From an uncultured Granulicella sp. (GTDB taxonomy: Bacteria > Acidobacteriota > Terriglobia > Terriglobales > Acidobacteriaceae), in NCBI GenBank assembly GCA_937871785.1, contig CALMON010000145.1, positions 1-35,971 of the forward strand: a stretch of DNA of 35,971 nucleotides. The letters run 5' to 3'. Below the pieces are notes generated by a model that saw nothing but the letters and a program-made list of their open reading frames with translations, had not been told where the DNA came from and ran no database searches. Of the stretch, positions 9,660-34,597 are shown one piece after another. The position numbers were made by a program, and so were the translations under genes. How positions within the stretch are numbered: position 1 is the first letter of the stretch; each line of letters opens with the position of its first letter.

Positions 9660-11294
9660 TCAGGGATGGAGGTCGGCCAGAGTTTTTTCATCCGTCAGAA
9701 AAAGGTTATCGGCGCCAAGTTTGCCATTGTCCAGCCGAACGATAAAGCGCAGCCGCGCCGCAGGAGACCTGGTGGCGATGCGCGTGGGGATCACGATGGT
9801 TGCGGCGACAGGACCGCCGGTGACGGGGTTCGCGTTGGTATGGACAACCTTCTTTTCGGCGAGCTGGCTAAGCTGTTTGCCCTTGCGGTCGAAACTGTCG
9901 ACGATCAGCGCAATGTTGCCGACGAGCCGATTGGGGCCGCCCGGTTGCCAGGGGATCGTCGCCGCGTTCAGGGTCAGCGTAAACTCGTCCGCTTCGGGCG
10001 CCGCGCGCGTCACCGTAAGCGGGACAGCGTCGTAGACCAGGGTGGTTTGCGCGGCGAGAGTGAGGTCGTACACGAGAGGGTCGGGCAGCTTCGACGCGGC
10101 GTTTAAGCTGACCGGCGACGCCGGCGGCCTGTTGTAATAGCCTTCCCGAGTGGCCGCGTGCAGGTTCGGGTCGCGCATGACGACGCGGATGTTGTGGAAG
10201 GTTTTGGTATCCGCGGCAGGACGTTCGGGATCGTAGGAAAGCGTATAAAAGCTGGCGGTATCGCGGGCGCTGATGCTGATCAGCTTATCGACATCGTTGC
10301 GGCCATAGAAGGCTTCGCCGCCGGTGGCGCGGGCGAGCGCGTTGAAGTCGACCTGCCCGGAAAAAGGGTCATTCTCCTGGAAGCCGTTGGGGTCCTGCGT
10401 GGGCGCGGCGGAAGGAACCCCTGCAGGGTCGAGCGTGTACATCACGATGCGCGCGTCGCGCAGAGCGTTGGTGCAGGTTTGGAGCGTGCGGTCCAAAGCC
10501 TCGTCCATGGCAGGCGACAGGTTGGCGGGGTCGAACGCCGGGAAGCCGCGGCCTACCCAGATAAGGCCTTTGTGCCCGGGATGGCCGGCGGTGGCCTGCG
10601 CAATCTCAAGAACCGAAGCGACCGAGCGGTTGAACTGCTCGGTTTGCCAGCCGCCGGTCTTCTGCCGGAACGGATAGATGCTGACGTGGTGCTCGACCGT
10701 CAAAAGGATCTCCTGGCTGGACGTCGTGTAGTCGTGCAGCATCGTGAAGTGGTCCATGTCGACGGCGATCAGCATCACGGGTTCGGGAAGCGTGCCGCCC
10801 ATGGTGTTCAGGTATTTTTTCAGCGAATAGCGCGCGAAGTTCGCGTCTTCAAAGCTGGTGTTGATCTCGTCTAAAACAAGGATCAGGACCGGGGCCATGG
10901 GTGCCGCTCGGTCAAGCTGCCGGGTGGACGTGACCGGCGTACCGAGAGCTTCCGGTCCGGCGTCGTGCCGGGCCTCAGGCGCTTCGAACGAGCGGATCGT
11001 TTGTGGGGCCTTGTCTTCGAAAATCTGAAAAGCATCGCGGGGGAGGTTCGTTACCGGCTTACCCTGCGCATCCGTGACGACGACGTCGAGAACGACAGCC
11101 TGCGTGTTGACCTGCAGCGTAAAGGTCCCCGGCTGCGGCGACTGTATGGCGGGCGGCATAGGCGGCTGTTGCGCGGTCGCCAGCGAACACACAATGGCCG
11201 TCGCGCACGTAAAAAGCAGAAGCGTCGCGCGACCGCAAAGGGTTCGAAACAGAGCCGATTTCGAGCGAGAAGCAGAACGGGGCGAACGTCGCAT
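9660..11294 (-). CDS. Secreted VWFA-related protein (Acidobacterial type)
   Basis: The protein has 544 residues from the ATG at 11294. An ATG at 11324 is in frame, but the later one has TATTCT exactly six bases before it and gives a sensible signal peptide. Residues 1-42 contain an Arg/Ser-rich n-region, the hydrophobic core ATLLLFTCATAIVC and a likely cut after SLATA. Next come a beta-rich segment (FTLQVNTQAVVLDVVVTDAQ, DAFQIFEDKAPQTI) and a von Willebrand A-like domain beginning VLILVLDEINTSFED, which carries a DxNxS-like variant of the metal-binding motif. The C-terminal ~170 residues are another beta-rich domain. This architecture matches the large family of VWFA-related exported proteins characteristic of Acidobacteria. 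Their role is unknown; adhesion or protein-protein contact is a guess. Confidence 0.85.
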   Translation of the reverse strand: MRRSPRSASRSKSALFRTLCGRATLLLFTCATAIVCSLATAQQPPMPPAIQSPQPGTFTLQVNTQAVVLDVVVTDAQGKPVTNLPRDAFQIFEDKAPQTIRSFEAPEARHDAGPEALGTPVTSTRQLDRAAPMAPVLILVLDEINTSFEDANFARYSLKKYLNTMGGTLPEPVMLIAVDMDHFTMLHDYTTSSQEILLTVEHHVSIYPFRQKTGGWQTEQFNRSVASVLEIAQATAGHPGHKGLIWVGRGFPAFDPANLSPAMDEALDRTLQTCTNALRDARIVMYTLDPAGVPSAAPTQDPNGFQENDPFSGQVDFNALARATGGEAFYGRNDVDKLISISARDTASFYTLSYDPERPAADTKTFHNIRVVMRDPNLHAATREGYYNRPPASPVSLNAASKLPDPLVYDLTLAAQTTLVYDAVPLTVTRAAPEADEFTLTLNAATIPWQPGGPNRLVGNIALIVDSFDRKGKQLSQLAEKKVVHTNANPVTGGPVAATIVIPTRIATRSPAARLRFIVRLDNGKLGADNLFLTDEKTLADLHP

Positions 11295-11300
11295 AGAGGG

Positions 11301-11330
11301 AGAATACGGCTTCGCAACTAGCATTCACAA
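11301..11330 (-). promoter_or_regulatory. Putative promoter of the VWFA-like gene
   Basis: On the minus strand TTGTGA (11325-11330) lies 18 bases before TATTCT (11301-11306). TATTCT in turn is six bases before the ATG at 11294. The -35-like hexamer matches TTGACA at four positions. There is no ribosome binding site, so a leaderless transcript is implied. Confidence 0.5.
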
Positions 11331-11357
11331 CGGACGTATCGCGACAATCAACGTCCG
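11331..11357. repeat. Inverted repeat in the divergent intergenic region
   Basis: CGGACGT (11331-11337) and ACGTCCG (11351-11357) are perfect inverted copies with 13 bases between them. Their centres are 20 bases apart, about two helical turns. The left arm abuts the putative -35 hexamer of the VWFA-like gene, and the site lies 60 bases upstream of the efflux pump start. It may be an operator; no regulator gene is adjacent. Confidence 0.45.
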
Positions 11358-11417
11358 CGCCACGAGAAAGCGGATGCTCTTTGCATCGGGAGCCTTCGTC
11401 TCGTCGTCCTATAGCCT

Positions 11418-12881
11418 ATGACTTCGCCCAACGGTTCGCCGCAAACGTCTCCGGACACTTCCGGGCGAACGCCGCAAAACGCCTCCCGGCCGAACCTGGT
11501 GCTCGGCATCTGCTGCATGAGCCTGCTGATCGTCAGCATGGATGTGACGATCGTCAACGTAGCGCTGCCCGCGATCCAGCACGATCTACGCGCCAACCTG
11601 TCCCAACTGCAATGGATCGTCGACGCCTACACGCTGGTGGTTGCGAGCCTGCTGATGCTTTCGGGCTCCATGTCTGACCGGTTCGGGCGGCGGCGCGTCT
11701 TTCAGATTGGCCTGGTATTGTTCACGGCGGGCTCGGTGCTGTGCAGTCTTGCGCAAAGCATCGGCCAGCTCATCGCTTTCCGCGCGATGCAGGGTTTAGG
11801 CGCGTCGATGCTGAACCCTGTGGCGCTCTCGATTATTGCGAACACGTTTACCGACCGCAAGGCGCGGGCGCGCGCGGTCGGCATCTGGGGCGCGGTGGCC
11901 GGCATCTCGCTGGCGCTGGGCCCGCTGGTAGGCGGCGCGCTGACGCAGACGGTCGGCTGGCGCTCGATCTTCTGGATCAACCTGCCCATCGGCGCGCTGG
12001 CGGTGATCCTGGCCGCGCTATATGTTCCGGAGTCCAAGGCACCGCAGGCTCGCGCTTTCGATCCGTTAGGCCAATTCCTGATCTTCGCCTGCCTTACGTC
12101 GCTTACCTATGCGGTGATCGAAGGCACGCACGCCGGTTGGGGATCACCGCTGATCGTCAGCCTGCTGACGGTAATGGGGGCCTCCTTCGTTGTGTTTTGC
12201 GTCTATGAGCCTCGCCTTCGGGAGCCGCTGATCGATCCGCGGTTCTTTCGCAGTGTGCCGTTTACGACCGCGACTCTGCTGGCCCTGGGCGCGTTCGCCT
12301 CGTTCGCCGCCTTTCTGTTTCTGAACGCGCTCTACCTGCAACAATCGCGGGGGTTTTCGGCCTTCCATGCCGGTTTAAGCACGCTTCCGCTGGCGCTGAT
12401 GATGTCGATCTGCGCGCCGCTTTCAGGAAGGATCGTTGCCAACCACGGCACGCGGCCACCGTTGCTATTGTCCGGTGTGGCGTTTCTGCTGAGCACGGTT
12501 TTGTTGACGCGCTTGCAAGCGTCGACTCCGCTGGTGTTGCTGCTGGTAGCCTATGCCCTGTTCGGGGCCGCCCTGGGGTTCGTCAACCCGACCATCACCA
12601 ACAGTGCCGTGGCCGGCATGCCGCTTTCGCAGGCCGGGGTGGCGGCGGCGATCGCCTCGACAGGGCGGCAGGTCGGCGCGGCGCTGGGCGTGGCGGTCGC
12701 GGGCAGCGTCGTCGCGGCCAGCCGCGCGCATGGTGTTGACTTCGCCACGGCGACGCACCCCGTCTGGTGGGCGATGACCCTGATCGGCGCGGTGATCGTG
12801 GTGCTGGGCTGGGCGTCCAACACGCCGTGGGCGCGCGACAGCCAAAGGCACGTGGCGGAGTTGCTGGGCGAAGGCAAATGA
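11418..12881 (+). CDS. DHA2-family (EmrB/QacA-like) MFS efflux transporter
   Basis: The protein has 487 residues with about 14 hydrophobic helices. Family marks are SMDVTIVNVALPAIQHDL in helix 1, WIVDAYTLVVASL at the start of helix 2, the loop-2/3 motif GSMSDRFGRRRVF, and motif C of drug/proton antiporters, GISLALGPLVGGAL, in helix 5. These point to a proton-driven exporter of drugs or other small hydrophobic molecules. The first ~25 residues are Ser/Thr/Pro-rich and cytoplasmic. The ATG at 11418 has no convincing ribosome binding site; TATAGC lies two bases before it. No membrane-fusion (EmrA-like) partner is adjacent. It is divergent from the VWFA-like gene, sharing a region with an inverted repeat. 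Confidence 0.9.
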   Translation: MTSPNGSPQTSPDTSGRTPQNASRPNLVLGICCMSLLIVSMDVTIVNVALPAIQHDLRANLSQLQWIVDAYTLVVASLLMLSGSMSDRFGRRRVFQIGLVLFTAGSVLCSLAQSIGQLIAFRAMQGLGASMLNPVALSIIANTFTDRKARARAVGIWGAVAGISLALGPLVGGALTQTVGWRSIFWINLPIGALAVILAALYVPESKAPQARAFDPLGQFLIFACLTSLTYAVIEGTHAGWGSPLIVSLLTVMGASFVVFCVYEPRLREPLIDPRFFRSVPFTTATLLALGAFASFAAFLFLNALYLQQSRGFSAFHAGLSTLPLALMMSICAPLSGRIVANHGTRPPLLLSGVAFLLSTVLLTRLQASTPLVLLLVAYALFGAALGFVNPTITNSAVAGMPLSQAGVAAAIASTGRQVGAALGVAVAGSVVAASRAHGVDFATATHPVWWAMTLIGAVIVVLGWASNTPWARDSQRHVAELLGEGK

Positions 12882-12907
12882 CGTAGGTGGGCTTCTGTCT
12901 CGCCCTT

Positions 12908-13642
12908 TCAGTTTGCCGTGCCTCCAGCTACGGGCAACGATACGCCGGAGATATAGTCGGCAGCCGGCGAAAGCAAAAACGCCATCGCCCCCACAACGTC
13001 CGCAGGCGTTGCATTGCGGCCGAGGGGGTGCCCGGCCGCGGCCAGTTGGACGGCGACTTCGCCGATTTCGGTCAGAAACTGCGTGGCCACCATGCTGGGG
13101 GCGACGGCGTTGATGCGCACGGGGGTTCCGGCGTAATCCGCCGCCAGCGCCCGCATCAGGCCCAACTGCGCGTACTTCACCACGCTGTAGGAGCTCATGT
13201 ATTTCGGCGGCACCCCATGCACCACGCTGGACAGCATAAATAAAACGCGGGCGCGCTCGAGCTTCGCCATCTTCGGTAGAAAGCGTTGCAGCAGCACGAT
13301 GATCGACCGCAATTGGATCGCCATGTCCTGCTCCATGCGCTCCCAGCGGAGCTTCGTGAAGCGTTCATAGGTGAGGCGCAGCGCGGGTAAGTGGACGATG
13401 GCCGACGGTGTGCCGTGGGCGGCCACGGCGTCGGCAAGCGAGACGGCGCCCTCAGGCGTCGAAAGGTCGGCCGTCAGCGCGGCCACGCGATCGGGATATT
13501 GCGCGATCAGGGCGTCGAACTTCGCCGGGTTGCTGAAGCTGTGCGCCAGCAGGCGGCTGCCCGTGGTCGCGAGCAGTGTGCTCATCAGCGCAAGACCGAT
13601 GTCGGACGACGCACCGGTGATCAAAACAAGGTCATTCTCCAT
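12908..13642 (-). CDS. Short-chain dehydrogenase/reductase (SDR)
   Basis: The protein has 244 residues with an NAD(P)-binding motif near the N-terminus (LITGASSDIGLAL, where Asp replaces the middle Gly of TGxxxGxG) and the catalytic Ser in LFMLSSVVHG. Tyr and Lys are in YSVVK, and the C-terminal GVSLPVAGG is typical of FabG-like SDRs. The start at 13642 overlaps the end of the MaoC gene by 11 bases, so translation is probably coupled. It is the last gene of the FkbH-ACP-MaoC-SDR cassette. It most likely reduces or oxidises a keto/hydroxy group on the carrier-bound acyl unit, but its exact substrate is not evident. Confidence 0.88.
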   Translation of the reverse strand: MENDLVLITGASSDIGLALMSTLLATTGSRLLAHSFSNPAKFDALIAQYPDRVAALTADLSTPEGAVSLADAVAAHGTPSAIVHLPALRLTYERFTKLRWERMEQDMAIQLRSIIVLLQRFLPKMAKLERARVLFMLSSVVHGVPPKYMSSYSVVKYAQLGLMRALAADYAGTPVRINAVAPSMVATQFLTEIGEVAVQLAAAGHPLGRNATPADVVGAMAFLLSPAADYISGVSLPVAGGTAN

Positions 13643-14054
13643 GGAACCCCACGCGGATGGTGCTTTTTGAAACCAGCTTGCGGTCCGCGGCTTTGCGGAT
13701 GCGCGCGCGGATCTCGAATCGTTTGTAAGCCTCGTTCATATACGACACTTCGCCTTCGACGCTCAGTACGTCTCCGGCAAAACAGGGCGAGTTGAAGTCG
13801 ATATCGAGCCCCTGCAGAAGCGCGTACTGGCCGGGGAGATACAGGCCAACCAGCCGCGAATACAGCGAGCTGCTCATCAGGCCGAAGACCACAGGCGACG
13901 CAAACCCCTGCCGGACGGCATACTTCGGGTCGACGTGCAGCGGGTTTCGATCGCCGGAAAGCTCAGCAAACTGCCCCATCATCGCCTCGGTAAACGTCGC
14001 CTCGAAATCCGCCTTCAGGCCGAGGTGAATGTCTTCCCAGCGGTACTGGTTCAT
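13632..14054 (-). CDS. MaoC-like (R)-hydratase, hot-dog fold
   Basis: The protein has 140 residues, the usual size for a stand-alone (R)-specific enoyl hydratase. The catalytic segment FAELSGDRNPLHVDPKYA carries the Asp and His of the hydratase 2 motif, followed by VVFGLMSSSLYSRLVG. It would add water to, or remove it from, an acyl thioester. The start at 14054 shares ATGA with the ACP stop. Sitting between an ACP and an SDR, it probably works on an ACP-bound rather than CoA-bound substrate; that is inference. Confidence 0.88.
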   Translation of the reverse strand: MNQYRWEDIHLGLKADFEATFTEAMMGQFAELSGDRNPLHVDPKYAVRQGFASPVVFGLMSSSLYSRLVGLYLPGQYALLQGLDIDFNSPCFAGDVLSVEGEVSYMNEAYKRFEIRARIRKAADRKLVSKSTIRVGFHGE

Positions 14055-14299
14055 TTCGCGGCCAGTTTGGTCTCAATCAGGTCGATCATTTCCCCGACGT
14101 TCTTAAGACCCTGGAGCTGGTCGAGAGCGAACTTGATCTTGAAATGCTTTTCAATGGTCGTGATGAGGTTGATGTGCGCGAGCGAGTCCCAGTCTTCCAC
14201 GTTTTGCGCGTTGGACTCGCGAGTGACGACGAGGTCGGGCTGATCGAGAATGTCCTGAAAGATGGGCTGCAACTGGTCGAGGATGTCCTGGCTGGTCAT
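14051..14299 (-). CDS. Acyl carrier protein
   Basis: The protein has 82 residues with the phosphopantetheine attachment Ser39 in WDSLAHINL, then the acidic helix and a final EMIDLIETKL. AGGAG lies four bases before the ATG at 14299. It is not the fatty-acid AcpP: the motif around the Ser (EDWDSLAH) is the one seen in dedicated carriers encoded next to FkbH-like enzymes. The gene is 18 bases downstream of the fkbH-like gene and overlaps the MaoC gene by four bases. It needs a phosphopantetheinyl transferase encoded elsewhere. Confidence 0.9.
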   Translation of the reverse strand: MTSQDILDQLQPIFQDILDQPDLVVTRESNAQNVEDWDSLAHINLITTIEKHFKIKFALDQLQGLKNVGEMIDLIETKLAAK

Positions 14300-14317
14300 G
14301 TAGCTCCTGGGTGAGGG

Positions 14318-16108
14318 TTACGTCCGAAGGGTGTCTAGAGAAATGTATTTGTTTTGCGGCTGGTAGCCGGCGAGCAGAAGCCGGTATCGTTTCGCGCCAT
14401 CTTCCGCGACGTGCTCAAGCGTAAAGCCAAGTGTGTCGTAAAACTCCGCTACCATGCTGTTTTTCTTTGTGGGTATGTACCGGCCGATCAGCGTCGTGAC
14501 GCCTCGTGCGACCGCTTCCCCGACCATCCGGTCGAGCATGGCGAGCTCCATGTCGCGCTTCAACACGCGGCAGCTCATCAGCCAAAGGTCGAGCTCCAGG
14601 TCATGTTCCACACGCCGGCCGAGCACCACCGACACCAGCCCATTGTCACCGAATCGATCTTGCAAGCGGCCGTAAACACCGATCGTTTCGGGGTCGTCGA
14701 GCAGGCTCGACATTTCGCTCAACGTGTACCGGCGTGTGGTGAGGTTGAACTGGTTGGTTTTGTTGGTAAGCTGCGCGATGCGCTCCAGATATACGGGGCG
14801 AAAGCGTTCGATTTCAGCCGTCATCGCCAGCGAAGCAAGGTACTCGCCGTAGTTGGCAAAGGCGGCCTGCGCGGCGTGGCGCTGCGCGTTGCCGGCGTAC
14901 TGCGCGGTGCGGGCAAGGTCTTCAGCGGAAAGCGAAACGGCCTCAAAGTAGCGGCCCGCGTCGAGGATGCGGGGGTACTGCGACGGATCGTTGCCGAGCT
15001 CCGGCACGGCGATGCCGGGCACCTGCGCGGCGACGATCGCGCGCTCGGCCGGGTTGTCGTCGGCGAAGACGAACGAGTCGGCGCCGAGGTTCAACTCGGT
15101 GGCGAGGCTCAGGATGTTTTCGTGCTTCGGCTGCCAGTTGGCGCGAAACGCCGAAAGGTGTTCGAGCTTCAGCACCGAGTCTGGATGCGCGAAGCCGGAG
15201 CGCGCCACCGCGTCATCGTTTTTTGAGCAGACCGCAAGCAGCACGCCACGGTCGCGCAGCGCGAGGCAGTACTCCTGAAAGGCCGTGAAGGCCTCGGCCA
15301 CAGGCGTTTCGCGGCCGATCTGGATGCGGTCGGCACCGTCGTCGCCGATAACACCGCCCCACAATGTGTTGTCGAGATCGAGCACCAATACCTTGCGCGA
15401 GCGGCCATAGAGCGCGCGCACGATGGAGGTGAGCGAGCGCGCGAGCAGCAGGTTAGCCTCCACGGTGAGCAGCAGCTTGTAGCTGAACCAGCGGTCGGCG
15501 TCGAACCATTGCGCAAGGCCTAAATGCGCCGAAAGGCCATGCACGTCCTGCAGCGTAAGCCACGTCCGACTGGCCGCCTCGTGCGCGAAGGCGGCGTTCA
15601 GAGCCAGCACGAAGCGGGTCGCGCTGCCGGGGGTGACGGCGTCGAAATTGCCGAAGCGGCTGAGCGGCGGAAGCTCGAAATTGTTCTGAATCACCTGGCA
15701 GCCGACGCCCGCTTCGAGCGCCGCCCACACCTGGCGATAGCGCTCGGTTTCCTGCTCTACCGCCTCTGCAAGCTCGGCTTCCGAGGTCCCGGCGGCGGGC
15801 GCTCCAAGAGCGTTTCGATACGACGTATGGACGTACACGAGATCGGGAGCGAAGCGCTTGAGCGCCGCCGTGTTCAGCACGGCTTCTTCGTAGAAGTGCC
15901 CGTACTCGGACTGGTGGAATGTCGGCAGAAACCCCGCTTCCAGCAGATGAAGCTGCAGAAGATCCACCACCTCGTTCGTCGTGGACCCACCGAGAACCGC
16001 GATGCGCAGGGGATGCAACCCCGGAGTCGCCGCCAGCTCACGCGCCAGAGAACGCCGCTTGCGCAGGATCTGGTCGACCGGCAGGTGAGACAAGGCGACG
16101 GAAGGCAT
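14318..16108 (-). CDS. FkbH-like HAD/acyltransferase (glyceryl-ACP-forming type)
   Basis: The protein has 596 residues in three parts. Residues ~30-220 resemble the SGNH-like N-terminal region of FkbH proteins (RIAVLGGSTTNEVVDLL, HQSEYGHFYEE). Residues ~235-400 are a HAD phosphatase-type domain with VLDLDNTLWGG (D244, D246, T248), CSKND and FADDNPAER. Residues ~430-590 are a GNAT-like domain (NKTNQFNLTTRRY, then FGDNGLVSV). Characterised FkbH enzymes dephosphorylate 1,3-bisphosphoglycerate and load the glyceryl group on an ACP, and an ACP gene follows 18 bases downstream. The ATG at 16108 lacks a ribosome binding site but has TAAACT exactly six bases upstream, implying a leaderless transcript for the cassette. 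Substrate assignment rests on family knowledge. Confidence 0.88.
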   Translation of the reverse strand: MPSVALSHLPVDQILRKRRSLARELAATPGLHPLRIAVLGGSTTNEVVDLLQLHLLEAGFLPTFHQSEYGHFYEEAVLNTAALKRFAPDLVYVHTSYRNALGAPAAGTSEAELAEAVEQETERYRQVWAALEAGVGCQVIQNNFELPPLSRFGNFDAVTPGSATRFVLALNAAFAHEAASRTWLTLQDVHGLSAHLGLAQWFDADRWFSYKLLLTVEANLLLARSLTSIVRALYGRSRKVLVLDLDNTLWGGVIGDDGADRIQIGRETPVAEAFTAFQEYCLALRDRGVLLAVCSKNDDAVARSGFAHPDSVLKLEHLSAFRANWQPKHENILSLATELNLGADSFVFADDNPAERAIVAAQVPGIAVPELGNDPSQYPRILDAGRYFEAVSLSAEDLARTAQYAGNAQRHAAQAAFANYGEYLASLAMTAEIERFRPVYLERIAQLTNKTNQFNLTTRRYTLSEMSSLLDDPETIGVYGRLQDRFGDNGLVSVVLGRRVEHDLELDLWLMSCRVLKRDMELAMLDRMVGEAVARGVTTLIGRYIPTKKNSMVAEFYDTLGFTLEHVAEDGAKRYRLLLAGYQPQNKYISLDTLRT

Positions 16109-16114
16109 GGCCGT

Positions 16115-16120
16115 AGTTTA
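16115..16120 (-). promoter_or_regulatory. Putative -10 element (TAAACT) of the fkbH-like gene, leaderless arrangement
   Basis: On the minus strand TAAACT is followed by ACGGCC and then the ATG at 16108, the same six-base spacing as at 4398, 7982 and 11301. No TTGACA-like hexamer is obvious upstream. Confidence 0.5.
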
Positions 16121-16270
16121 CCAACTTCGCAGGCAGGCCGCCGCGCGGAAGCTCGCCTCGCTGCTGTGGCTCTCGATGAGACGAAATGCAGCAACCGGTC
16201 GGAGAAAGCGTGTTTGGCTGAGCTACGGGCTATAAGCCGCGAGTTGGAGGATGCGCATCGAGCCCTTTCT

Positions 16271-16298
16271 ATGCTCACCGCTCAACGCTCGCCGCTCA
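16271..16298. repeat. Tandem heptanucleotide repeat, four units
   Basis: Four consecutive 7-base units, ATGCTCA, CCGCTCA, ACGCTCG and CCGCTCA, share the core NNGCTCR. They lie in the 212-base gap between the MFS carrier stop and the fkbH-like start. The same heptad array occurs inside purL at 33430-33457. Apart from this and the TAAACT box, the gap shows no gene or terminator. Confidence 0.6.
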
Positions 16299-16320
16299 CA
16301 CAAGCCCACCGCGGCACTCA

Positions 16321-17610
16321 TCACCCAACGAAGGCGGAAGCGGCACCACCCCGCGGAGGCTGAGCTTTCCGCGGGTGGTGCTCCTCGCGCAGAAAGAACC
16401 AGAAGAACGCCGCCGCAAGGAACGCCGCCGCGTCGAGCGAAAACGCTGCGCGGAAACCGTGACGGTCCGCCAGGCCGCCTGCAAGGAACGGGGCAGCCGC
16501 GCTGGCCAGGCGGCCGAAATTGTAAGTAAAGCCCTGCGCCGTCGAACGGATCGCGGTGGAATAGGCATTGGCGGTTACATCGGCGAAGCCGCTGAAGTAA
16601 CCGGTCGCGGCGAAGGCCACGCAGGGCCCCAGCGCCAGCAGCAGCCAGGGCGAATGCACGCGCGCAAACAGCATCAGAAGCGCGGCGGCGGTTAGTAGGA
16701 ACGCGACATACACCCGCTTACGGCCGAACGCGGTCGCCAGGTACCCAAAGCCGATGTACCCGCACCACATGCCCACCTGCATGGCGACAAGTATGCCCGT
16801 CATGGTGCGCGCCGTGAAACCTATACCTCCGTGAGCGGGCGCGAGCGAAAGGTACGCGGGCACCCACAGGTTAAAGCCCCACCACGCAAACAGGCAGCAG
16901 GCATTCATGAGCGTAAGCACCACGGTTTGCGGCAGCAGCGGCGGGCGAAGGATGGTCGCGAACGGGTGTGCCGCGACGCGTTCCCGCACCGCCGTTCGCC
17001 AGGCTTCGGGTTCTGGCACGCGACGGCGCAGCCAGACCGTCAACAACGCCGGCAGCAGGCCGACGGCAAACACGCCGCGCCAGGTGATCAGCGGCTGCAG
17101 TCCGTAGGACACCAATGCCGCCAGACCGAAGCCGACCGCAAACGAGCTTTGCATCAACGCAAGCGCTTTGGCGCGGCTCGCGGCCGGCCACGTTTCGCTG
17201 ACGAGCGACGCGCCGGTGGCCCACTCGCCGCCCATACCAAACCCAAGCAACACGCGGAAGCAAAGCAGCGACGGGAAGTTCCACGCCAGGCCGCAAGCTG
17301 CGGTGAAGACGGCGTACACCAGCACGCACAGGGTCAGCATCCGCACACGTCCCCAGCGGTCGGCAGCGATGCCGAACAGGATGCCGCCGACGGCTGCGGC
17401 CACCAGCGTCACCGACCCAAGCGCTCCGGCCAGGCTCTTGTTCAGGTGGAGGCTGGTCATGACGGCGGGCAGAACCAGGGCGTAAAGCAGGATGTCGAAG
17501 GCGTCGAGCATCCAGCCGAGCGAGGCAGCCAGCAGCGCGCGACGGGCCGCGAGCGGAGCGCCGAGCAGCCAGGCCAGCGGGCGTTCCTTTCGAACAGCCG
17601 CGGCGCTCAG
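16321..17610 (-). CDS. MFS carrier (metabolite:proton symporter type), probable CTG start
   Basis: The protein has 429 residues and about 12 helices if started at CTG 17610. The first ATG in frame (17511) falls inside helix 1, and no GTG or TTG lies between. The residues before it, RRALLAASLGWMLDAFD, are exactly the conserved start of helix 1 in the aromatic acid/sialate symporter group. AGAGGAG lies five bases before the CTG, and CTGA overlaps the stop of the hyuB-like gene. Other marks are GIAADRWGRVRML in loop 2/3 and LLGFGMGGEWATGASLV in helix 4. It probably imports the substrate or exports the product of the hydantoinase encoded just upstream. A conservative annotation would start at 17511 with 396 residues. 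Confidence 0.85.
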   Translation of the reverse strand: MSAAAVRKERPLAWLLGAPLAARRALLAASLGWMLDAFDILLYALVLPAVMTSLHLNKSLAGALGSVTLVAAAVGGILFGIAADRWGRVRMLTLCVLVYAVFTAACGLAWNFPSLLCFRVLLGFGMGGEWATGASLVSETWPAASRAKALALMQSSFAVGFGLAALVSYGLQPLITWRGVFAVGLLPALLTVWLRRRVPEPEAWRTAVRERVAAHPFATILRPPLLPQTVVLTLMNACCLFAWWGFNLWVPAYLSLAPAHGGIGFTARTMTGILVAMQVGMWCGYIGFGYLATAFGRKRVYVAFLLTAAALLMLFARVHSPWLLLALGPCVAFAATGYFSGFADVTANAYSTAIRSTAQGFTYNFGRLASAAAPFLAGGLADRHGFRAAFSLDAAAFLAAAFFWFFLREEHHPRKAQPPRGGAASAFVG

Positions 17611-19247
17611 GCGGGCTCCTCTTCTGCTATCGAGACGTTTGCGGCCGGAGCCCCAAAGGCGCCGCCGCCGGGCGTTGCCATGCGCAGGCGGTCGCCGGCG
17701 GCAAGCTCCAGCCGCGCCTTGGCCGGCAGCCGCTCTTCCGTGCCATCGGCGCGAATCAGGGTATTGACGCCGGACGCTCCGGGGCCGCCGCCGGCCATGC
17801 CGTAGGGACGGCTTTCGCGGCGGTCGGTCAGAATCGTCGCCGACGTAGGCACCAGCACTTCGTACTCGCGGATAAGCCCCTCCCCACCGGCGAACTCGCC
17901 CACACCGCCCGAACCCTGCCGCAGCGCATACTGCCGGATGCGCACCGGCAGCGCCTGCTCAAACGCTTCGACCGGCGTGTTGCGCGTGTTGCTCATGTGG
18001 GTGTGGACGCCGCTTAGTCCAGGCAAACCGGGTCGCGCGCCCATGCCGCCACCGGCGGTTTCATAATAGGCGAACGGCCGGCCGAGCCGGTCGGTTCCTC
18101 CCAGCGTCACGTTGTTCATGGTGCCCTGGCTGGCTGCGGGAATCCTGCCCGGCAGCGCCTTTGCGAGCGCACCCAGCACTACGTCGGTGATGCGCTGCGA
18201 GCATTCCACATTGCCCCCGGCGACCGCCGACGGGTGCCGCGCATTCACCACCGTTCCCGCAGGCGCGATCAAGGTGACCGGGCGCGTCATGCCGTCGTTG
18301 TACATCACGTCTTCTTTTATCAGGCAACGGAAGCAGTACAGCGTCGCCGAAAGCGTGATGGCGAGGTTCGCGTTGACGCCGCCGGAGGTTTGCGCGTCGG
18401 TGCCGGTGAAGTCGACCGTGGCATGGTCATCGGCAATGGTCACGACGACGCGAAGGTGCACGGGCGCGTCCGAAAAACCGTCGTTGTCGAGCGCATCGGC
18501 GAACTCGTAGCGGCCGTCCGGAATGGCGGCGATGGTCCGTCGCAGCACACGCTCGGCGTAATCCTGCACCTCGCCGGCATAAAGGTTCACACGCCCAGCC
18601 CCGTAGCGCGCGACCAGCCGCAGCAGCCGCGCTTCGCCAATGCGATTGGCCGCGATCTGCGCGGTCAGGTCGCCTTCGCGCTCTATCGGCGTCCGCACGT
18701 TGGCAAGAATCAGCGACAAAAGTTCGCGGTTTATTTCGCCGCCTTTGACCAGCCGAACCGGAGGCAGGATCAAGCCTTCCTGGAAGATTTCGCGCGCCAG
18801 CGGCATCGACCCCGGACTCATGCCGCCGACGTCCGAATGATGGGCGCGATTGGCGGCGAAGAACGCCGGTTTGTCTCCCGCGACCGCGCCCGGAAGGAAG
18901 ATCGGAGCGACCAGCGTAATATCCGGCAGGTGCGTTCCGCCGCGAAACGGGTCGTTCAATACGATCATGTCGCCGGGCGCCATCGCAACGTGGTCGATAG
19001 CCGCGCGCACTGAAAGCGGCATAGCGCCCAGGTGCACGGGCAGGTGGTCGCCCTGCGCGACGGTGCGCCCGGCGCTGTCGTAGATAGCGCAGGAATAGTC
19101 GAGACGCTCCTTGATGTTGGGCGAAAAGCCGGTGCGGCAAAGCGTGACGCCCATCTCCTCGGCGATCGACAGAAACAGGTTCTTGAAAATTTCGAATTCA
19201 ATCGGGTCGGATACGGCTGAGGTGACCATGGTCACGGGTATGGTCAT
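17607..19247 (-). CDS. hyuB: Hydantoinase B/oxoprolinase subunit
   Basis: The protein has 546 residues. The ATG at 19247 has GGAGG six bases upstream and shares ATGA with the hyuA stop; frame upstream of it is not conserved-looking. Family marks are FKNLFLSIAEEMGVTL, VLNDPFRGGTHLPDITL, AHHSDVGGMSPGSMP, and near the end the Gly-rich GGGPGASG and MATPGGGAFG. It pairs with HyuA to open cyclic amides with ATP. Substrates in the family include 5-oxoproline, N-methylhydantoin and, in larger complexes, acetone. The neighbouring exported aminopeptidase favours a peptide-derived substrate such as 5-oxoproline, but this is inference. Confidence 0.92.
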   Translation of the reverse strand: MTIPVTMVTSAVSDPIEFEIFKNLFLSIAEEMGVTLCRTGFSPNIKERLDYSCAIYDSAGRTVAQGDHLPVHLGAMPLSVRAAIDHVAMAPGDMIVLNDPFRGGTHLPDITLVAPIFLPGAVAGDKPAFFAANRAHHSDVGGMSPGSMPLAREIFQEGLILPPVRLVKGGEINRELLSLILANVRTPIEREGDLTAQIAANRIGEARLLRLVARYGAGRVNLYAGEVQDYAERVLRRTIAAIPDGRYEFADALDNDGFSDAPVHLRVVVTIADDHATVDFTGTDAQTSGGVNANLAITLSATLYCFRCLIKEDVMYNDGMTRPVTLIAPAGTVVNARHPSAVAGGNVECSQRITDVVLGALAKALPGRIPAASQGTMNNVTLGGTDRLGRPFAYYETAGGGMGARPGLPGLSGVHTHMSNTRNTPVEAFEQALPVRIRQYALRQGSGGVGEFAGGEGLIREYEVLVPTSATILTDRRESRPYGMAGGGPGASGVNTLIRADGTEERLPAKARLELAAGDRLRMATPGGGAFGAPAANVSIAEEEPA

Positions 19248-21322
19248 GAGTGTCCTCCGGCAACGTCGGTGGAGGTGAGGACAAGCATTCCGTGCTGATC
19301 GAGTCGCCATGTCCAGTCCGGTGGAACTACATGTGTCGACTCACCCGCGATCAGCAGAGCAGGGCCACTGCCAGTCATGCCGGGGCTTAATTGACTCGTT
19401 CGGAACAGCGGCGTCGGCCACGGTTTGCCCGCGAACACCACATCCGCAAAGCGTTCCGGGACGCAAGGAGCTGAGGTCCAGATAGCCTGCGCGGGCACAG
19501 CCGGCGGCTTCTGCGTGCGGCCCGTGGCGCGCAGCCGAAGCTGCACGCATTCCGTGGCTCGCGCGGAGTTGCTGTAGCCGTACAGCTTCGCGTGCAGCGC
19601 ATGGAAGCTGGCGGCAAAAGCTTCAGTGGTGCTGCCTTCGCCCAGCGCGGCGGCGGGGAACGGCACATCAATCTCAAACGCCTGTCCGATGTAGCGCATC
19701 GCGAGCGCAGGTTCAATCACTACCTCACCTGTGCCGAAACCCTCTTCGGCAAGAGCGGCGCGGGCTCGCTGTTCGAGCCCGCCGAGCGCGGCGCGCAGGT
19801 TTGCAGGCAAAAGCGCGGCGGTAGCCTGCAGCACCGGCGCGGAAAAGTCTTTGACAACATCGGCGAGCAACATGCCAAGTGCGGAAAGTACGCCGGCGTG
19901 CTCCGGAATCAGAACCGTCGTGATCTCAAGCGACTCCGCCAGGCCGCACGCATGGAGCCCCCCGGCACCACCGAAGGCCAGCAGAGCGAAGTCGCGCGGA
20001 TCGTGCCCGCGTTGCACGCTGACCACCCGTACGGCGCGCTCCATGCTTGCGTTGGCGATGCGCACGATCCCTTCGGCCAGCGCGATGACGCTCAACCCTG
20101 TGCGTTGGCCGAACGCCTTGGCGACGCGTTGCGTGCGGTCGATGTCGAGCGTCATGCGGCCGCCTAGAAAATAACCCGGGTCCAGCCGTCCGAGCAGCAG
20201 GTTGGCGTCGGTCACGGTGAGTTCCTCCCCCTTGCCGAAGCAGACCGGGCCGGGGTCCGCTCCCGCAGAGCGCGGCCCTACGCGCAGGCCGCCGCCGGAA
20301 TCGAGCCAGGCGACAGACCCGCCACCCGCGCCGACGGTGTGGATGTCGAGCACGGGCAACCGCACCGGAAGGTCGCCCACCAGCGACTCGTTGGTGGTGC
20401 CGATCGCGCCGTCGATGAGGCTGACGTCGGTCGACGTGCCGCCCATGTCGAAGGTGATCAGCCGCGTGTAGCCGGACCGTGCGCCGACGGATTGCGCACC
20501 CACCACGCCCGCTGCGGGGCCGGAAAGGATCGTTTGCACGGCTTCGGTGCTGGCGCGCGCGGCAGATATCGAGCCGCCATTCGACTGCATGATGCGCAAC
20601 GCGCCCTGGCTCTCCATGGCCCCTGCGACGAGTTCCGCCTGCAGCTTGCCGAGATACGTCGCCATCAGCGGAGCCACATAGGCGTTCACCGCGGTTGTGG
20701 CCCAGCGTTCGTATTCGCGGTACTCCGGCAGCACCTCGTGCGAGGCGGACACGCGAAAGCCTTCGTCCCGCAGGGTCTTGGCTGCCTGCTCCTCATGCGC
20801 GGGGCTCCTGTAGGAATGCAGAAAGCAGATCGCCACCGACTCGATACCCGCGTTGCGAAGCTGCGGGATCAGCCCTTCCACCTCGCCGAGGTCGAGCGCT
20901 TGCAACACCGTGCCGTCGGCAGCGACGCGCTCGGCTATGCCGAAGGTGTGGGCCGAGCCGACCAGCGGCTCCGGCCGGCGAACCTGGAAGTTGTACAGCT
21001 CCGGCCGGGTCTGCCGGCCAAGCCGCAGCACGTCTTCGAAGCCGGCCGTGGTGAGCAGCGCGACACGCGCGCCCTTGCGCTCCAGCACCGCGTTGGTGGC
21101 GACAGTGGGCCCATGCGTGACATCCAGCGTGAGCGCGAGGAGGTCGTCGCCAACCAAAGCACGAATCCCGGCAAGCACCGCGACCGACGGGTCGGCCGGC
21201 GTGGAGCGCAGCTTGCCGACACGCAGGCCGCGCTCGTCGTCGAGGCACACGAGATCCGTGAACGTGCCTCCGGTGTCGACGCCGATGCGCATCACCTTGC
21301 GCTGTGCCGAACCCCCGCTCAA
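19244..21322 (-). CDS. hyuA: Hydantoinase A/oxoprolinase subunit
   Basis: The protein has 692 residues if started at TTG 21322, which shares TTGA with the aminopeptidase stop. An ATG at 21292 would begin MRIGVDTGG, with only a poorly placed AAGG before it. The ASKHA-type phosphate motif IGVDTGGTFTDLV (residues 13-25) opens the N-terminal domain. HGPTVATNAVLERKG and, mid-protein, LITFDMGGTSTDVSL are the second set of nucleotide-binding loops. The C-terminal part has LLAFGGAGGLHACGLAE. It binds ATP and activates the substrate for ring opening together with HyuB. The length is normal for the separate A subunit (~690). It lies in a four-gene operon with overlapping stops and starts. Confidence 0.92.
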   Translation of the reverse strand: MSGGSAQRKVMRIGVDTGGTFTDLVCLDDERGLRVGKLRSTPADPSVAVLAGIRALVGDDLLALTLDVTHGPTVATNAVLERKGARVALLTTAGFEDVLRLGRQTRPELYNFQVRRPEPLVGSAHTFGIAERVAADGTVLQALDLGEVEGLIPQLRNAGIESVAICFLHSYRSPAHEEQAAKTLRDEGFRVSASHEVLPEYREYERWATTAVNAYVAPLMATYLGKLQAELVAGAMESQGALRIMQSNGGSISAARASTEAVQTILSGPAAGVVGAQSVGARSGYTRLITFDMGGTSTDVSLIDGAIGTTNESLVGDLPVRLPVLDIHTVGAGGGSVAWLDSGGGLRVGPRSAGADPGPVCFGKGEELTVTDANLLLGRLDPGYFLGGRMTLDIDRTQRVAKAFGQRTGLSVIALAEGIVRIANASMERAVRVVSVQRGHDPRDFALLAFGGAGGLHACGLAESLEITTVLIPEHAGVLSALGMLLADVVKDFSAPVLQATAALLPANLRAALGGLEQRARAALAEEGFGTGEVVIEPALAMRYIGQAFEIDVPFPAAALGEGSTTEAFAASFHALHAKLYGYSNSARATECVQLRLRATGRTQKPPAVPAQAIWTSAPCVPERFADVVFAGKPWPTPLFRTSQLSPGMTGSGPALLIAGESTHVVPPDWTWRLDQHGMLVLTSTDVAGGHS

Positions 21323-24168: not shown

Positions 24169-25095
24169 TTAGGCCAGCAAATCGTTCAACAACGCCATGC
24201 GGCAGTAAAGCGCGTTCTTGGTTTGCCGGAAATAGGCGGCGCGGTGGTTGGCATCGACCTCCGGCGAAATCTCATGTACCCGCGGCAGGGCGTGCATGAT
24301 GATAGCGTGCGGCTTCAGCGTGTCGGCCAGAGCGGCACTCAGGATAAAGACATCCTGTACGGCAGCGTAGTCGGCTTCGGTGGCGAAGCGTTCGCGCTGC
24401 ACCCGCGTGATGTACGCGACGTCGGCGGCTTGCAGCGCACGTTCGAAATCGGCAGTCTCGCGGAACTGGATGCCGTGGTCGCGAAGCAGGTTGAGGTAGG
24501 CTTCCGGCAGGCGCAGTTGCGGCGGCGAAATGAGGTCCAGCATCACGCCGCGATGCACGCACAAGAGCGGCAGCAGCGAATGGATTGTGCGGCCGTAGCG
24601 CAGGTCGCCGACCAGCGCGATGCGCAGACCATCGATGCCGCCAAGCTCGCGCTGCATAGTGTAGATGTCGCCAAGAGCCTGTGTAGGGTGCTCGCCGGCA
24701 CCATCGCCGGCGTTGATCACGGGCACCGGAGAAATAGCCGCGGCAGCCGCGGCGGCACCCTCCGCGAAGTGCCGCATCACGATTGCGTCGGCGTAGCCGG
24801 CGATGACCTTGACCGTGTCCGAAATGGTTTCACCCTTCACCGCGGACGAGCTGTCGCGCGCGTTCTCGGCGGTAATCACGCCGCCGCCCAGCTTCTGCAT
24901 GGCCGCCTCGAAAGAAAAACGCGTGCGCGTGCTGGGCTCGTAAAATAGGCTTGCCAGGATGCGCCCGCGCATCGGCTGCGGCAGCGTGCGGCCGACGTCG
25001 TCGAGCTCCATACGGCCGGCGGAGGCGAACAGACTGGCCAGCAGATCGCGGTCCAGAAACACCCGCGCGGTAATGACGTGCCTGAGCCGGCTCAC
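24169..25095 (-). CDS. pyrB: Aspartate carbamoyltransferase catalytic subunit
   Basis: The protein has 308 residues. It joins carbamoyl phosphate and aspartate to give carbamoyl-aspartate, the first committed step of pyrimidine synthesis. The carbamoyl-phosphate site is STRTRFSFE; other marks are MRHFAEG, HPTQALGDIYT, VGDLRYGRTIHSL and MHALPRVHEI. The start is GTG 25095, which overlaps the pyrC stop (GTGA). GGAGG lies seven bases upstream, so translation is coupled. It is the last gene of the pyrDEFCB operon; no regulatory pyrI follows. Confidence 0.96.
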   Translation of the reverse strand: MSRLRHVITARVFLDRDLLASLFASAGRMELDDVGRTLPQPMRGRILASLFYEPSTRTRFSFEAAMQKLGGGVITAENARDSSSAVKGETISDTVKVIAGYADAIVMRHFAEGAAAAAAAISPVPVINAGDGAGEHPTQALGDIYTMQRELGGIDGLRIALVGDLRYGRTIHSLLPLLCVHRGVMLDLISPPQLRLPEAYLNLLRDHGIQFRETADFERALQAADVAYITRVQRERFATEADYAAVQDVFILSAALADTLKPHAIIMHALPRVHEISPEVDANHRAAYFRQTKNALYCRMALLNDLLA

Positions 25096-26339
25096 GCGCT
25101 CACCTCCGGGAAAACCGTGCCGCGAATCACTGTGGCGCGTACGCTGCCGGGTAGCGTGTGGCCTTCAAACGGCGACCACGCACAACGGCTGCGAATGCTT
25201 TCGCGCGTGACGTTATACGGCTTGCTGAGATCGAGAATTGTGAGCGAACCGATGTAGCCCGGTGCGATCAGGCCGAAGCCTTCGCCGCTGTTGGCCGGCA
25301 GAAATTCGCGCACGAACTGCCCCGGGTTCCACGCGCAGACGCGGCTGATCTGCTGTGGGGTGAAGCCCTGCTCGACCATGAGCCACCCGGCAAACGCGCC
25401 ATAGGTGTCGAGGTGCGGGACACCGCTCACGCCGGTCTGTTTCTCTTCGAGCGTATGTGGCGCGTGGTCGGTGGCGATGTAGTCGATAGTGCCATCGCGC
25501 AAGGCTTCGATCAAAGCCAGCCGGTCGGACGGCGCGCGCAGCGGCGGGTTCATTTGCAACGCGAGCCGGTTGCCGTCGGTCAGCATCGCATCGTCGAAGT
25601 ACAGGTGGTGCGGCGTCGCTTCGCAGGTGACGCGGACACCGCGGGCCCGTGCCGCGCGTATCTGCGCGAGGCCTTCGCCAGTAGAATAGTGGCACAACTT
25701 GCCAACCAGCCCGTAAGTTTCAATCAGTTTTAGCGCAAACTCCGTCGCGGCGACTTCAGCGATAGCGGGGCGGCGCGCTTCGTGCGTGGCCGCGCCTTTG
25801 TGCTGTTCCAGCAGCACGGGGTCTTCACAATGGAAGCTCACGTTACAGCCGCGGTAGCGCGCGATCGCTTCTTCCAACTGGGCCTGCGACGCAAAAAACA
25901 GGTCGCCCACCGAAGGCCCCATGAACGCCTTGTACGGCACGGGCCGCGCGAGCGGCTGCGTGCCCGGGCCGATGCCCGCGTAGAGCGTCACGTGCACGGA
26001 GGAGCTTCGCGTGAGCACGGCCTTGGCGGCGTAGCTCGCTTCATCGACCGGAGCCACCGGGTTGTTGGGCATGTCGGCTACCTGCACCACGCCGCCATGG
26101 AGCGCGGCGTTCGAAGCCGAACGGAAATCCTCCTTGTGCAACTGCGTTCCGCTGACATCTTCACGCGCATGGATGTGGACGTCGCCGAAGCCGGGGAAGA
26201 TAAGGCAGCCGCTCGTGTCGAGGTCGCTGCGGCCCTGAGCCGGGCCTACATGTGTGATGAGACCGGTCGCCGTATCGACTTCGACGGCACCGTCGAACTC
26301 ACGGTCATGGTTTGCGATGCGGCCTTCAACGCGCAGCAT
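25092..26339 (-). CDS. pyrC: Dihydroorotase
   Basis: The protein has 415 residues. The ATG at 26339 is chosen because AAAGGA lies five bases before it and the protein then begins with the usual short beta strand (MLRVEGRIANH). Metal ligands are in DVHIHARED; the carboxylated Lys is likely in QLHKEDF. SFHCEDP, CEATPHHLYFDD, TDHAPHTLEEK and GVPHLDT complete a type I dihydroorotase. It closes carbamoyl-aspartate to dihydroorotate. The usual HLREPG after the metal site reads HARED, a modest divergence. The gene overlaps pyrF by 14 bases and pyrB by four. Confidence 0.93.
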   Translation of the reverse strand: MLRVEGRIANHDREFDGAVEVDTATGLITHVGPAQGRSDLDTSGCLIFPGFGDVHIHAREDVSGTQLHKEDFRSASNAALHGGVVQVADMPNNPVAPVDEASYAAKAVLTRSSSVHVTLYAGIGPGTQPLARPVPYKAFMGPSVGDLFFASQAQLEEAIARYRGCNVSFHCEDPVLLEQHKGAATHEARRPAIAEVAATEFALKLIETYGLVGKLCHYSTGEGLAQIRAARARGVRVTCEATPHHLYFDDAMLTDGNRLALQMNPPLRAPSDRLALIEALRDGTIDYIATDHAPHTLEEKQTGVSGVPHLDTYGAFAGWLMVEQGFTPQQISRVCAWNPGQFVREFLPANSGEGFGLIAPGYIGSLTILDLSKPYNVTRESIRSRCAWSPFEGHTLPGSVRATVIRGTVFPEVSA

Positions 26340-27159
26340 GGACGTCCTTTCGCACAACGCTGCGTGCGGTGTTGATCGCATCGCGAAAGCCGCGCGCCGC
26401 CCCAGCCGGCTCGCTGCTGTACAGGATGTCACGCGACACGCTCAGGATCAGGCCTTTGCCGCTCGAGTCGAGCCCCGCCGCGACCACCGCGGCGATGTCG
26501 CCGCCCTGAGTGCCGATGCCCGGAACCAGAAACACCGTGTGCGGCGCGAGCGCACGCAGCACGCGCATTTCCTCAGGATACGTAGCACCGACGACCAACA
26601 TACAGTTGCCGTCGCGGTCCCACTCGCGCGTCACTTTTTCGGCGACGATCTGCCATAGCGGTTTGCCATCGCAAAGGAGATCCTGAAACTCACCCGCACC
26701 CGCGTTCGACGTGCGGCAAAGCACGATGCAGGCCTTGTCGGCGCGTTTAAGAAAAGGCTCCATGGCCTCGCGGCCAAGGTACGGATGCAGGGTGATGGCG
26801 TCGCATTGCAACTCGTCGAACGCCGCGGTCGCGTAGCCGCGATTGGTGTTGCCGATGTCGGCGCGTTTGGCGTCGCAGATGACCATGTGGTCGGGGTACT
26901 CGTCGTGCAGATACTCACAGATCATGTCGAGTTCCGTGGCCCCTACAGCGCCACGCGCTTCGAAAAAAGCCGTGTTCGGCTTGAACGCAGCCGCGTAGGG
27001 CGCGGTCTGGTCGATGATGCCGCGGCAGAACGTCCAGAGTGGAAATGTCTCGGCTCGAAAGCGCTCCGGCATACGCTCGAGATCGGGGTCGAGCCCGACA
27101 CACAGCAGCGAGTTCGCAGCCTCGGCGCGCGTGTTGAACTTGGCGGCCACGGCGTTCAT
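26326..27159 (-). CDS. pyrF: Orotidine 5'-phosphate decarboxylase, type 2
   Basis: The protein has 277 residues. The ATG at 27159 shares ATGA with the pyrE stop; the longer open frame upstream is only the shadow of pyrE. Marks of the larger type 2 group are LLCVGLDPD, AFKPNTAFFEA, the catalytic ICDAKRADIGNTNRGYA, VGATYPEEM and VPGIGTQGGD. It decarboxylates OMP to UMP, the last step of the pathway. It lies between pyrE and pyrC with overlaps at both ends, so the two final enzymes are made side by side. Confidence 0.95.
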   Translation of the reverse strand: MNAVAAKFNTRAEAANSLLCVGLDPDLERMPERFRAETFPLWTFCRGIIDQTAPYAAAFKPNTAFFEARGAVGATELDMICEYLHDEYPDHMVICDAKRADIGNTNRGYATAAFDELQCDAITLHPYLGREAMEPFLKRADKACIVLCRTSNAGAGEFQDLLCDGKPLWQIVAEKVTREWDRDGNCMLVVGATYPEEMRVLRALAPHTVFLVPGIGTQGGDIAAVVAAGLDSSGKGLILSVSRDILYSSEPAGAARGFRDAINTARSVVRKDVHAAR

Positions 27160-30733: not shown

Positions 30734-30734
30734 C

Positions 30735-34595: not shown

Positions 34596-34597
34596 CT

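Follow-up and report, generated by a model that had tools for sequence, protein, structure and literature searches.

An FkbH-ACP-MaoC-SDR cassette in an uncultured Granulicella as a candidate donor module for Dlt-like acylation

The window analyzed here, a stretch of 35,971 nucleotides from an uncultured Granulicella sp. (contig CALMON010000145.1 of assembly GCA_937871785.1), carries at 12908-16108 a cassette of four genes that encode an FkbH-type protein, an acyl carrier protein (ACP), a MaoC-type hydratase and an SDR-family reductase. We propose that this cassette makes up the donor half, in the cytoplasm, of a Dlt-like acylation system. Its role as a donor module for glycan or envelope acylation is probable; the whole chain, through to an MBOAT acyltransferase and its SGNH partner, we regard as having an even chance of being correct, and lactyl as the product is a more tentative proposal. 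The first-pass annotation of this DNA had called for a search of related neighborhoods for a recurring acyltransferase, and one was found: an MBOAT gene lies no more than 6.5 kb from FkbH in 35 of 80 related loci, with an SGNH partner as well in 30, against a chance expectation of about 0.2% (from 42 genes in 240 Mb of 61 related genomes, a rate that may be higher in other phyla).

The cassette and its recurrence

The first-pass annotation described four overlapping or tightly spaced genes, and the open reading frames (ORFs), family matches and motifs at this place bear out that description:

14318..16108, minus strand: FkbH-type glyceryl transferase/phosphatase, 596 amino acids, with an N-terminal FkbH_N region, a HAD-IIIC core and a C-terminal FkbH region
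14051..14299, minus strand: discrete ACP, 82 amino acids, PF00550, with the carrier serine in DSL
13632..14054, minus strand: MaoC-type (R)-specific hydratase/dehydratase, 140 amino acids, PF01575, with GDRNPLH
12908..13642, minus strand: SDR-family reductase, 244 amino acids, PF13561/PF00106, with TGASSDIG and YSVVK

FkbH and ACP are separated by 18 nt, ACP and MaoC overlap by 4 nt, and MaoC and SDR overlap by 11 nt. The window FkbH has the FkbH domain, the HAD active-site motifs and the C-terminal Cys expected of its family. It exceeds the cut-off of TIGR01686 (283 bits versus 147), scores 64 bits as HAD-IIIC, and falls slightly under the FkbH_N cut-off (24.2 versus 27 bits). D244-x-D246-x-T248 (DLDNT), DDNP and C513 are invariant across 14 aligned FkbH proteins; in the 80 loci described below, D-x-D-x-T is present in all and a C-terminal SCR cysteine in 79. 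We take the conserved C-terminal cysteine to be the acylated one. The only PDB relative of FkbH found by sequence is 3slr, an uncharacterised protein. The other three proteins pass the Pfam cut-offs of PF00550 (ACP), PF01575 (MaoC) and PF13561 (SDR). Seven NCBIfam models match the ACP at E-values up to 0.001, all of them general ACP models and none above cut-off, and the dltC model is not among the seven. The carrier motif [DE]S[LMVIF] occurs in all 75 FkbH-linked ACPs. The best solved match of the window MaoC is the (R)-specific enoyl-CoA hydratase 1iq6 (E 1.4e-18), and its MaoC domain has both the Asp and the His of GDxNPxH, as in MaoC/PhaJ enzymes. Among the 28 full cassettes found in the survey, the strict form of this motif is present in 25, with Asp and His retained in the remaining three, and the YxxxK of the SDR in all 28. 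The four-gene cassette is real and exactly placed, with intact motifs. A decayed remnant was ruled out, as all four frames are open and the motifs kept, and a part in a defence system was rejected for want of any PADLOC match for FkbH.

Of 143 FkbH stretches confirmed among 84,980 species genomes, the best 80 were studied, with flanks fetched up to 10 kb per side; many flanks are shorter, and 40 of the 80 loci have at least 6 kb on both sides. Search profiles were seeded from loci already showing the gene pairs and then rebuilt from their own hits. An ACP lies near FkbH in 75 of the 80 loci, and the full FkbH-ACP-MaoC-SDR set is found in 28, distributed over Pseudomonadota (12), Acidobacteriota (5), Bacillota (5), Campylobacterota (3), Myxococcota (1) and Bacteroidota (1), with one unassigned. 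A few phylum labels probably stem from misbinned contigs; the FkbH proteins of L033, L034 and L037, on contigs binned as Rhodanobacteraceae, Verrucomicrobia and Hyphomicrobiales, are 59-75% identical to the acidobacterial one and were probably misbinned. The closest FkbH relatives of the window come from Terriglobus, Silvibacterium, Edaphobacter and Granulicella, at 61-73% identity, which points to a member of the Acidobacteriaceae as the most likely host. Recurrence of the set across several phyla, with its catalytic motifs kept, is more than chance.

MaoC and SDR mostly travel together, both being present in 29 loci, MaoC only in five and SDR only in two. Over 29 cassettes the pairwise distances of FkbH, ACP, MaoC and SDR correlate with one another (r 0.76-0.90; Mantel p 0.0005, uncorrected for kinship), and after thinning to nine distant cassettes five of the six correlations remain at p < 0.05, that between MaoC and SDR having r 0.68. 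In L023, L024 and L048 a glyoxalase/VOC-fold protein occupies the place of MaoC-SDR, accompanied in L048 by a methyltransferase, which suggests other edits of the glyceryl group. A second group of FkbH proteins, about 32-34% identical, is represented by L114, L141 and L142 and by genomes G003, G008, G011, G020 and G026. An ACP and a VOC-fold protein adjoin FkbH in the three loci, and no MBOAT was found in the five genomes.

The first-pass annotation had further stated that the cassette is accompanied by no ketosynthase, acyltransferase or adenylation gene. Among the 28 window ORFs, a subset of all ORFs, that were scanned with Pfam, there was no ketosynthase, no acyltransferase of the polyketide synthase (PKS) type, no adenylation enzyme and no MBOAT. 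In the fetched flanks of the 80 loci, a search with one PKS protein of the window's genome found no ketosynthase/acyltransferase protein, and a search with one non-ribosomal peptide synthetase (NRPS) protein of the same genome found an adenylation protein in two loci (L045, L052). On these counts, together with the window scan, the cassette was rejected as a piece of a PKS/NRPS cluster; relatives do not always lie inside such a cluster, the outcome which the first-pass annotation had named as contrary to its view. A related possibility is that an NRPS or PKS encoded elsewhere in the genome draws its starter or extender unit from the cassette in trans, as with classical FkbH sets. FkbH units do feed PKSs (PMC7489565), and the same genome has adenylation domains on contigs C166 and C120 as well as a PKS-type acyltransferase domain on C120. 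Nevertheless, we hold this to be very improbable, given the flank counts just described, and the partner genes that PMC7489565 lists for methoxymalonyl and tetronate pathways were not seen among the 28 scanned window ORFs; nor were a FabH-like gene, an O-methyltransferase and a C3 dehydrogenase pair. The NRPS pieces on C166 lie on a contig of 8 kb, and C120 carries an NRPS/PKS stretch.

Acyltransferase partners of FkbH

An MBOAT neighbor is found near 13 of the 18 closest FkbH relatives of the window (L022-L039), and in 19 of the 40 loci with at least 6 kb of flank on both sides. Pfam PF03062 was shown for one linked protein. Of the 35 MBOAT-linked loci, 31 belong to phyla other than Bacillota. 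Distances of FkbH and MBOAT correlate with r 0.60 over 38 loci and r 0.65 over 18 thinned loci. The C-terminus of the linked MBOATs bears the motif FxYxxF in 26 of 32 complete proteins (exceptions being L023, L035, L040, L042, L095 and L096), compared to 1 of 1255 other stop-to-stop ORFs of at least 300 amino acids; five of 37 MBOAT rows were left out of this count, two because they run off contigs and three as pieces of the broken L090 gene. FxYxxF is described as an acyl-shuttle motif; in PatA and DltX its tyrosine becomes acylated (PMC12148441). All 47 rows of SGNH partners have G-x-S and 45 have a C-terminal His, these rows including five second copies of 42 distinct genes. A Pfam scan of six SGNH partners gave one match, to DUF1574, below cut-off. 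The statement of the first-pass annotation that the set stands alone holds within the window; in many relatives an acyltransferase adjoins, and the set is not intrinsically orphan.

Co-occurrence in 61 related genomes points the same way. All 15 genomes whose FkbH reaches 340 bits (the limit for a high-scoring FkbH, chosen after viewing the table) have an MBOAT, as do 7 of the 46 others (Fisher p 2e-9, blind to kinship); inside the genus, the figures are 14 of 14 and 3 of 14 (p 3e-5). Two genes gave two rows each in this count, so that its 44 MBOAT rows stand for 42 genes. Only 1 of the 13 genomes having just low-scoring FkbH genes has an MBOAT, and MBOATs of the type found on contig C186 of the window's genome (over 450 bits) occur in ten genomes, all among the 15. 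By a hand count from coordinates, MBOAT is within 5 kb of 8 of 16 high-scoring FkbH genes and of 0 of 20 lower-scoring rows. FkbH of the window type (over 770 bits) is confined to 4 of the 61 genomes, with MBOAT adjacent in three of these and not in the window's.

The source genome is a draft of 269 contigs, 82.9% complete, in which the window belongs to contig C145 (41.7 kb). It contains four MBOAT genes, on C235, C186, C159 and C71, the latter two being more distant. The C235 set (L109, 5401-10218) consists of FkbH, ACP, MBOAT and SGNH without MaoC or SDR, its FkbH, the second of the genome, being 43% identical to that of the window. C186 encodes an SGNH-MBOAT pair with neither FkbH nor ACP alongside. 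The acyltransferase pair of C186 has no loader beside it and the loader cassette of C145 no acyltransferase, so that the two halves lie apart in this genome. The final acceptor, which the first-pass annotation had called unknown, now has a likely machine in MBOAT-SGNH, and a related pair is present in this very genome.

The C186 MBOAT matches DltB (6bug, E 6.5e-25) and ends in FLYFQF. In a quick tree it clusters, with 100% SH-aLRT support, with the MBOATs of L024, L031, L036 and C235, all four of which are FkbH-linked. The tree holds 38 rows that were gathered by FkbH linkage, except for those of the window's genome, and leaves out 14 duplicate or cut loci (L002-L005, L008, L063, L090, L098, L102-L105, L111 and L113). 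A model of the C186 SGNH protein (pLDDT 90.6) has an N-terminal helix and an SGNH fold, with Z 10-12 to SGNH enzymes, including Z 10.4-10.5 to OatA and PatB (for PatB 7tlv, Z 10.4, root-mean-square deviation 3.9, 159 residues aligned). C186 is collinear with G025, the identities being 70% for the flanking gene, 47% for SGNH, 61% for MBOAT, 64% for ispE and 85% for the next gene; the FkbH-ACP that separates the flanking gene from SGNH in G025 is missing in C186. A like split is seen in the genome of L029 (G062), where the single FkbH found is part of a full cassette, MBOAT is absent for 10 kb around it, and another contig has an SGNH-MBOAT pair ending in FLYFQF that is 54% identical to that of C186. 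We tentatively name the C186 pair as the likeliest partner of the window cassette in trans and put C235, a locus equipped with an FkbH and an ACP of its own, second. In other relatives the stretch before ispE holds FkbH-ACP-SGNH-MBOAT (L129), SGNH-MBOAT alone (L108), or FkbH without ACP and MBOAT (L124, L126, L131, L133 and L140), as if the parts of the ispE locus had been lost or gained piecemeal.

MBOAT is not the only acyltransferase near the full set. Hexapeptide acyltransferases adjoin full cassettes in L038, L050 and L092, and by resemblance in L044, whereas GNAT acyltransferases do so in L058 and L085. A NeuB-like gene (L084) and CMP-sugar-like genes (L084, L087) are nearby, again by resemblance. 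Pfam gave no match for the cassette-adjacent proteins in L066, L080, L084, L087 and L094. Because full cassettes lacking MBOAT adjoin hexapeptide or GNAT genes, and no MBOAT was found in some of their genomes, FkbH-ACP-MaoC-SDR looks like a donor module that serves several kinds of acyltransferase. The suggestion of the first-pass annotation that a small hydroxy-acyl group is supplied to decorate a glycan, lipid or amino sugar agrees with the MBOAT/SGNH, hexapeptide and GNAT neighborhoods alike, and its interpretation overall is partly supported.

These neighborhoods, found in several Pseudomonadota and Bacillota, also raise the possibility that the ACP-bound group is used in the cytoplasm, where a GNAT or hexapeptide acyltransferase would acylate an amino sugar or nucleotide sugar before export. 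To illustrate, a hexapeptide gene stands 0.3 kb upstream of the acidobacterial full cassette of L038, whose genome yielded no MBOAT; nor did four more full-cassette genomes. For the window, this is unlikely. A GNAT or hexapeptide gene was not found among the 28 scanned ORFs, and of the five closest relatives without a nearby MBOAT, four (L027, L029, L032 and L037) have one elsewhere in the genome.

Several results weigh against a cassette coupled to MBOAT-SGNH. Seventeen full cassettes are flanked by 6 kb or more on each side, and in only 5 of them does an MBOAT come within 6.5 kb; some without MBOAT sit by hexapeptide or GNAT genes. In 15 genomes the full cassette has no linked MBOAT; ten of these have an MBOAT elsewhere, a check which also took in L027 and L032, and none was found in the five drafts L038, L041, L044, L066 and L091. 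The 41.7-kb contig of the window likewise has no MBOAT, of the DltB type or any other. Across the nine thinned cassettes FkbH and ACP correlate only weakly (r 0.31, p 0.06). Half of the high-scoring FkbH genes (8 of 16) have no MBOAT within 5 kb. In seven genomes (G002, G006, G009, G010, G016, G022 and G027) FkbH was found to have no ACP nearby either, with ispE adjoining in five, and the FkbH proteins of these seven may do something else. The co-occurrence may also partly reflect locus history or kinship; because the genomes are related, and FkbH proteins without ACP may have another function, the Fisher test overstates the evidence. As for the C186 pair, its true partner may have been lost, or C235 may serve it, because the FkbH of G025 is just 39% identical to that of the window. 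DltD (6o93) is a weak Foldseek match of the C186 SGNH model (rank 12, E 0.03) and is not among the structure-comparison (VIA) rows shown for it.

Proposed pathway and known systems

In the proposed pathway, FkbH would move the glyceryl group of 1,3-bisphosphoglycerate onto the phosphopantetheine of its dedicated ACP, as its family membership suggests, and so replace an adenylating enzyme. MaoC would then take off the 3-hydroxyl as water, leaving pyruvyl-ACP by way of the enol, and the SDR would reduce pyruvyl-ACP to lactyl-ACP; loci without MaoC and SDR would retain glyceryl. By analogy with Dlt and Pat, MBOAT would transfer the acyl group from ACP to the tyrosine of its own C-terminal FxYxxF tail, from which the SGNH transesterase would pass it to an envelope polymer. 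The load-dehydrate-reduce logic is that of the bryostatin and tartrolon loading modules, with their FkbH, dehydratase (DH) and ketoreductase domains; the presumed chemistry is the same, and here the enzymes are discrete and outside any PKS. Glyceryl transfer from 1,3-bisphosphoglycerate to ACP by FkbH has been proposed for tetronate and methoxymalonyl pathways (PMC7489565), and OocJ is a DH alongside FkbH, described as probably not functional (PMC4552970).

Lactyl as the product is the weaker part, drawn from chemistry and from the loading modules just named, which counts against the full scheme. The donor system could be right and the group a different one, either because MaoC and SDR make another unit or because glyceryl is transferred and the two enzymes serve a side path. 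MBOAT is present in 20 of the 41 loci that have ACP but neither MaoC nor SDR, making glyceryl alone a plausible cargo, and the VOC-fold protein and methyltransferase of L048 stand in the place of MaoC and SDR. Even so, we judge this alternative quite improbable, since the prevalent pairing of MaoC and SDR and the correlation of their distances after thinning fit a dehydrate-then-reduce pair.

Like the Dlt system (DltA, DltB, DltC, DltX and DltD), the proposed system has a discrete carrier as presumed acyl donor, a DltB-related MBOAT, an SGNH partner and the FxYxxF motif. It differs in having no DltA, as a glycolytic acyl phosphate would be the source from which FkbH charges the ACP; in carrying the shuttle motif on the MBOAT itself, where Dlt has it on DltX; and in its cargo, which would be a hydroxy acid instead of an amino acid and would be edited by MaoC and SDR. 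No adenylation domain that might mark a DltA was found in the 28 scanned window ORFs, and TIGR01734 has no match above its cut-off of 559.85 bits in the window's own genome (83% complete), the best scoring 269. A Dlt operon proper was rejected, there being no DltA and no DltC-family carrier. The idea of D-lactate placed on lipoteichoic acid by Dlt was dropped on the evidence of the literature.

PatA/PatB and alginate-type acetylation likewise combine an MBOAT ending in FxYxxF with an SGNH transferase (PMC12148441). Such an MBOAT is found in relatives of the window and on C186, not in the window itself, and an SGNH partner with catalytic Ser and His is seen in the linked rows and in the C186 model. 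The difference lies in the ACP and loading enzyme that are linked in relatives, whereas PatA uses acetyl-CoA; the same paper describes MBOAT-SGNH pathways other than Dlt as being without a carrier protein. According to a review (PMC10213974), acyl-CoA is the donor of all MBOATs but DltB. The set would work like Dlt yet is no Dlt system, and its linked carrier protein would set it off from the Pat/Alg type. The FkbH/ACP glycerate and methoxymalonyl-ACP operons (FK520, tetronates) share FkbH, a discrete ACP and 1,3-bisphosphoglycerate as presumed source (PMC7489565). In place of the FabH-like, O-methyltransferase and C3 dehydrogenase genes of those operons the cassette has MaoC and SDR, and it has no PKS nearby.

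We would tentatively go further, at rather less than an even chance, and propose a second carrier-fed MBOAT system, in which an adenylation-free route would lead from 1,3-bisphosphoglycerate via lactyl-ACP and the MBOAT tyrosine tail to SGNH and surface polymers. Its donor half would be a plug-in, used by GNAT and hexapeptide acyltransferases too and separable from the acyltransferase, as in this genome and that of L029. FkbH-like protein and ACPs accompany glycan acylation in the Campylobacter flagellin-glycan genes Cj1299-Cj1308. In suomilide/aeruginosin-type NRPS pathways, as described in the literature, FkbH loads a glycerate starter and an MBOAT is proposed for another step. A link of FkbH to MBOAT-SGNH acylation was not found in the open-licence literature, most subscription papers being outside that scope. 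If the proposal is true, a second carrier-fed class of MBOAT exists, by which surface lactylation or glycerylation draws directly on glycolysis, and lactate- or glycerate-esterified envelope polymers are predicted in many bacteria outside the Dlt-bearing Gram-positives. It would also give a role to many genes now bearing family names only (HAD-IIIC phosphatase, ACP, MaoC, SDR).

Promoter and surroundings

The first-pass annotation gave the cassette its own leaderless promoter, and a fitting element lies just upstream:

16115..16120, minus strand: TAAACT hexamer, ending 6 nt ahead of the FkbH ATG, likely the -10 element of a leaderless transcript, as judged from sequence

Of 19 close sequences, 6 (the window, L024, L026, L028, L035 and L112) have TANNNT at exactly this distance of 6 nt from the FkbH start, a number not reached in any of 2000 shuffles (mean 0.25, highest 4); of 56 more distant loci, 1 has it. 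Besides the window and L112, the 19 take in all but one of the 18 loci L022-L039; the distance of 6 nt was set after looking, and starts were picked by rule (GTG in L034 and L022). A Shine-Dalgarno-like stretch is present in 5 of the 19. A sigma-70 scan of 11300-17700 returned no site. A leaderless FkbH promoter, common to some relatives, is plausible on sequence evidence.

MFS transporter genes lie on both sides of the cassette, at 11418-12881 (plus strand) and 16321-17511 (minus strand). Further out, one side has acidobacterial VWA, GGDEF and ABC-transporter genes; the other has hydantoinase genes and genes of pyrimidine and purine type. The hydantoinase B and A genes (17607-21322) overlap by 67 nt, with the MFS gene at 16321-17511 downstream. 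At 24169-35659, genes of the OTCace family, an amidohydrolase, OMP decarboxylase and dihydroorotate dehydrogenase on the minus strand stand beside PurF-, PurL- and PurM-like genes on the plus strand. The acidobacterial VWA-domain protein, at 9660-11324, scores above the cut-off of TIGR03436.

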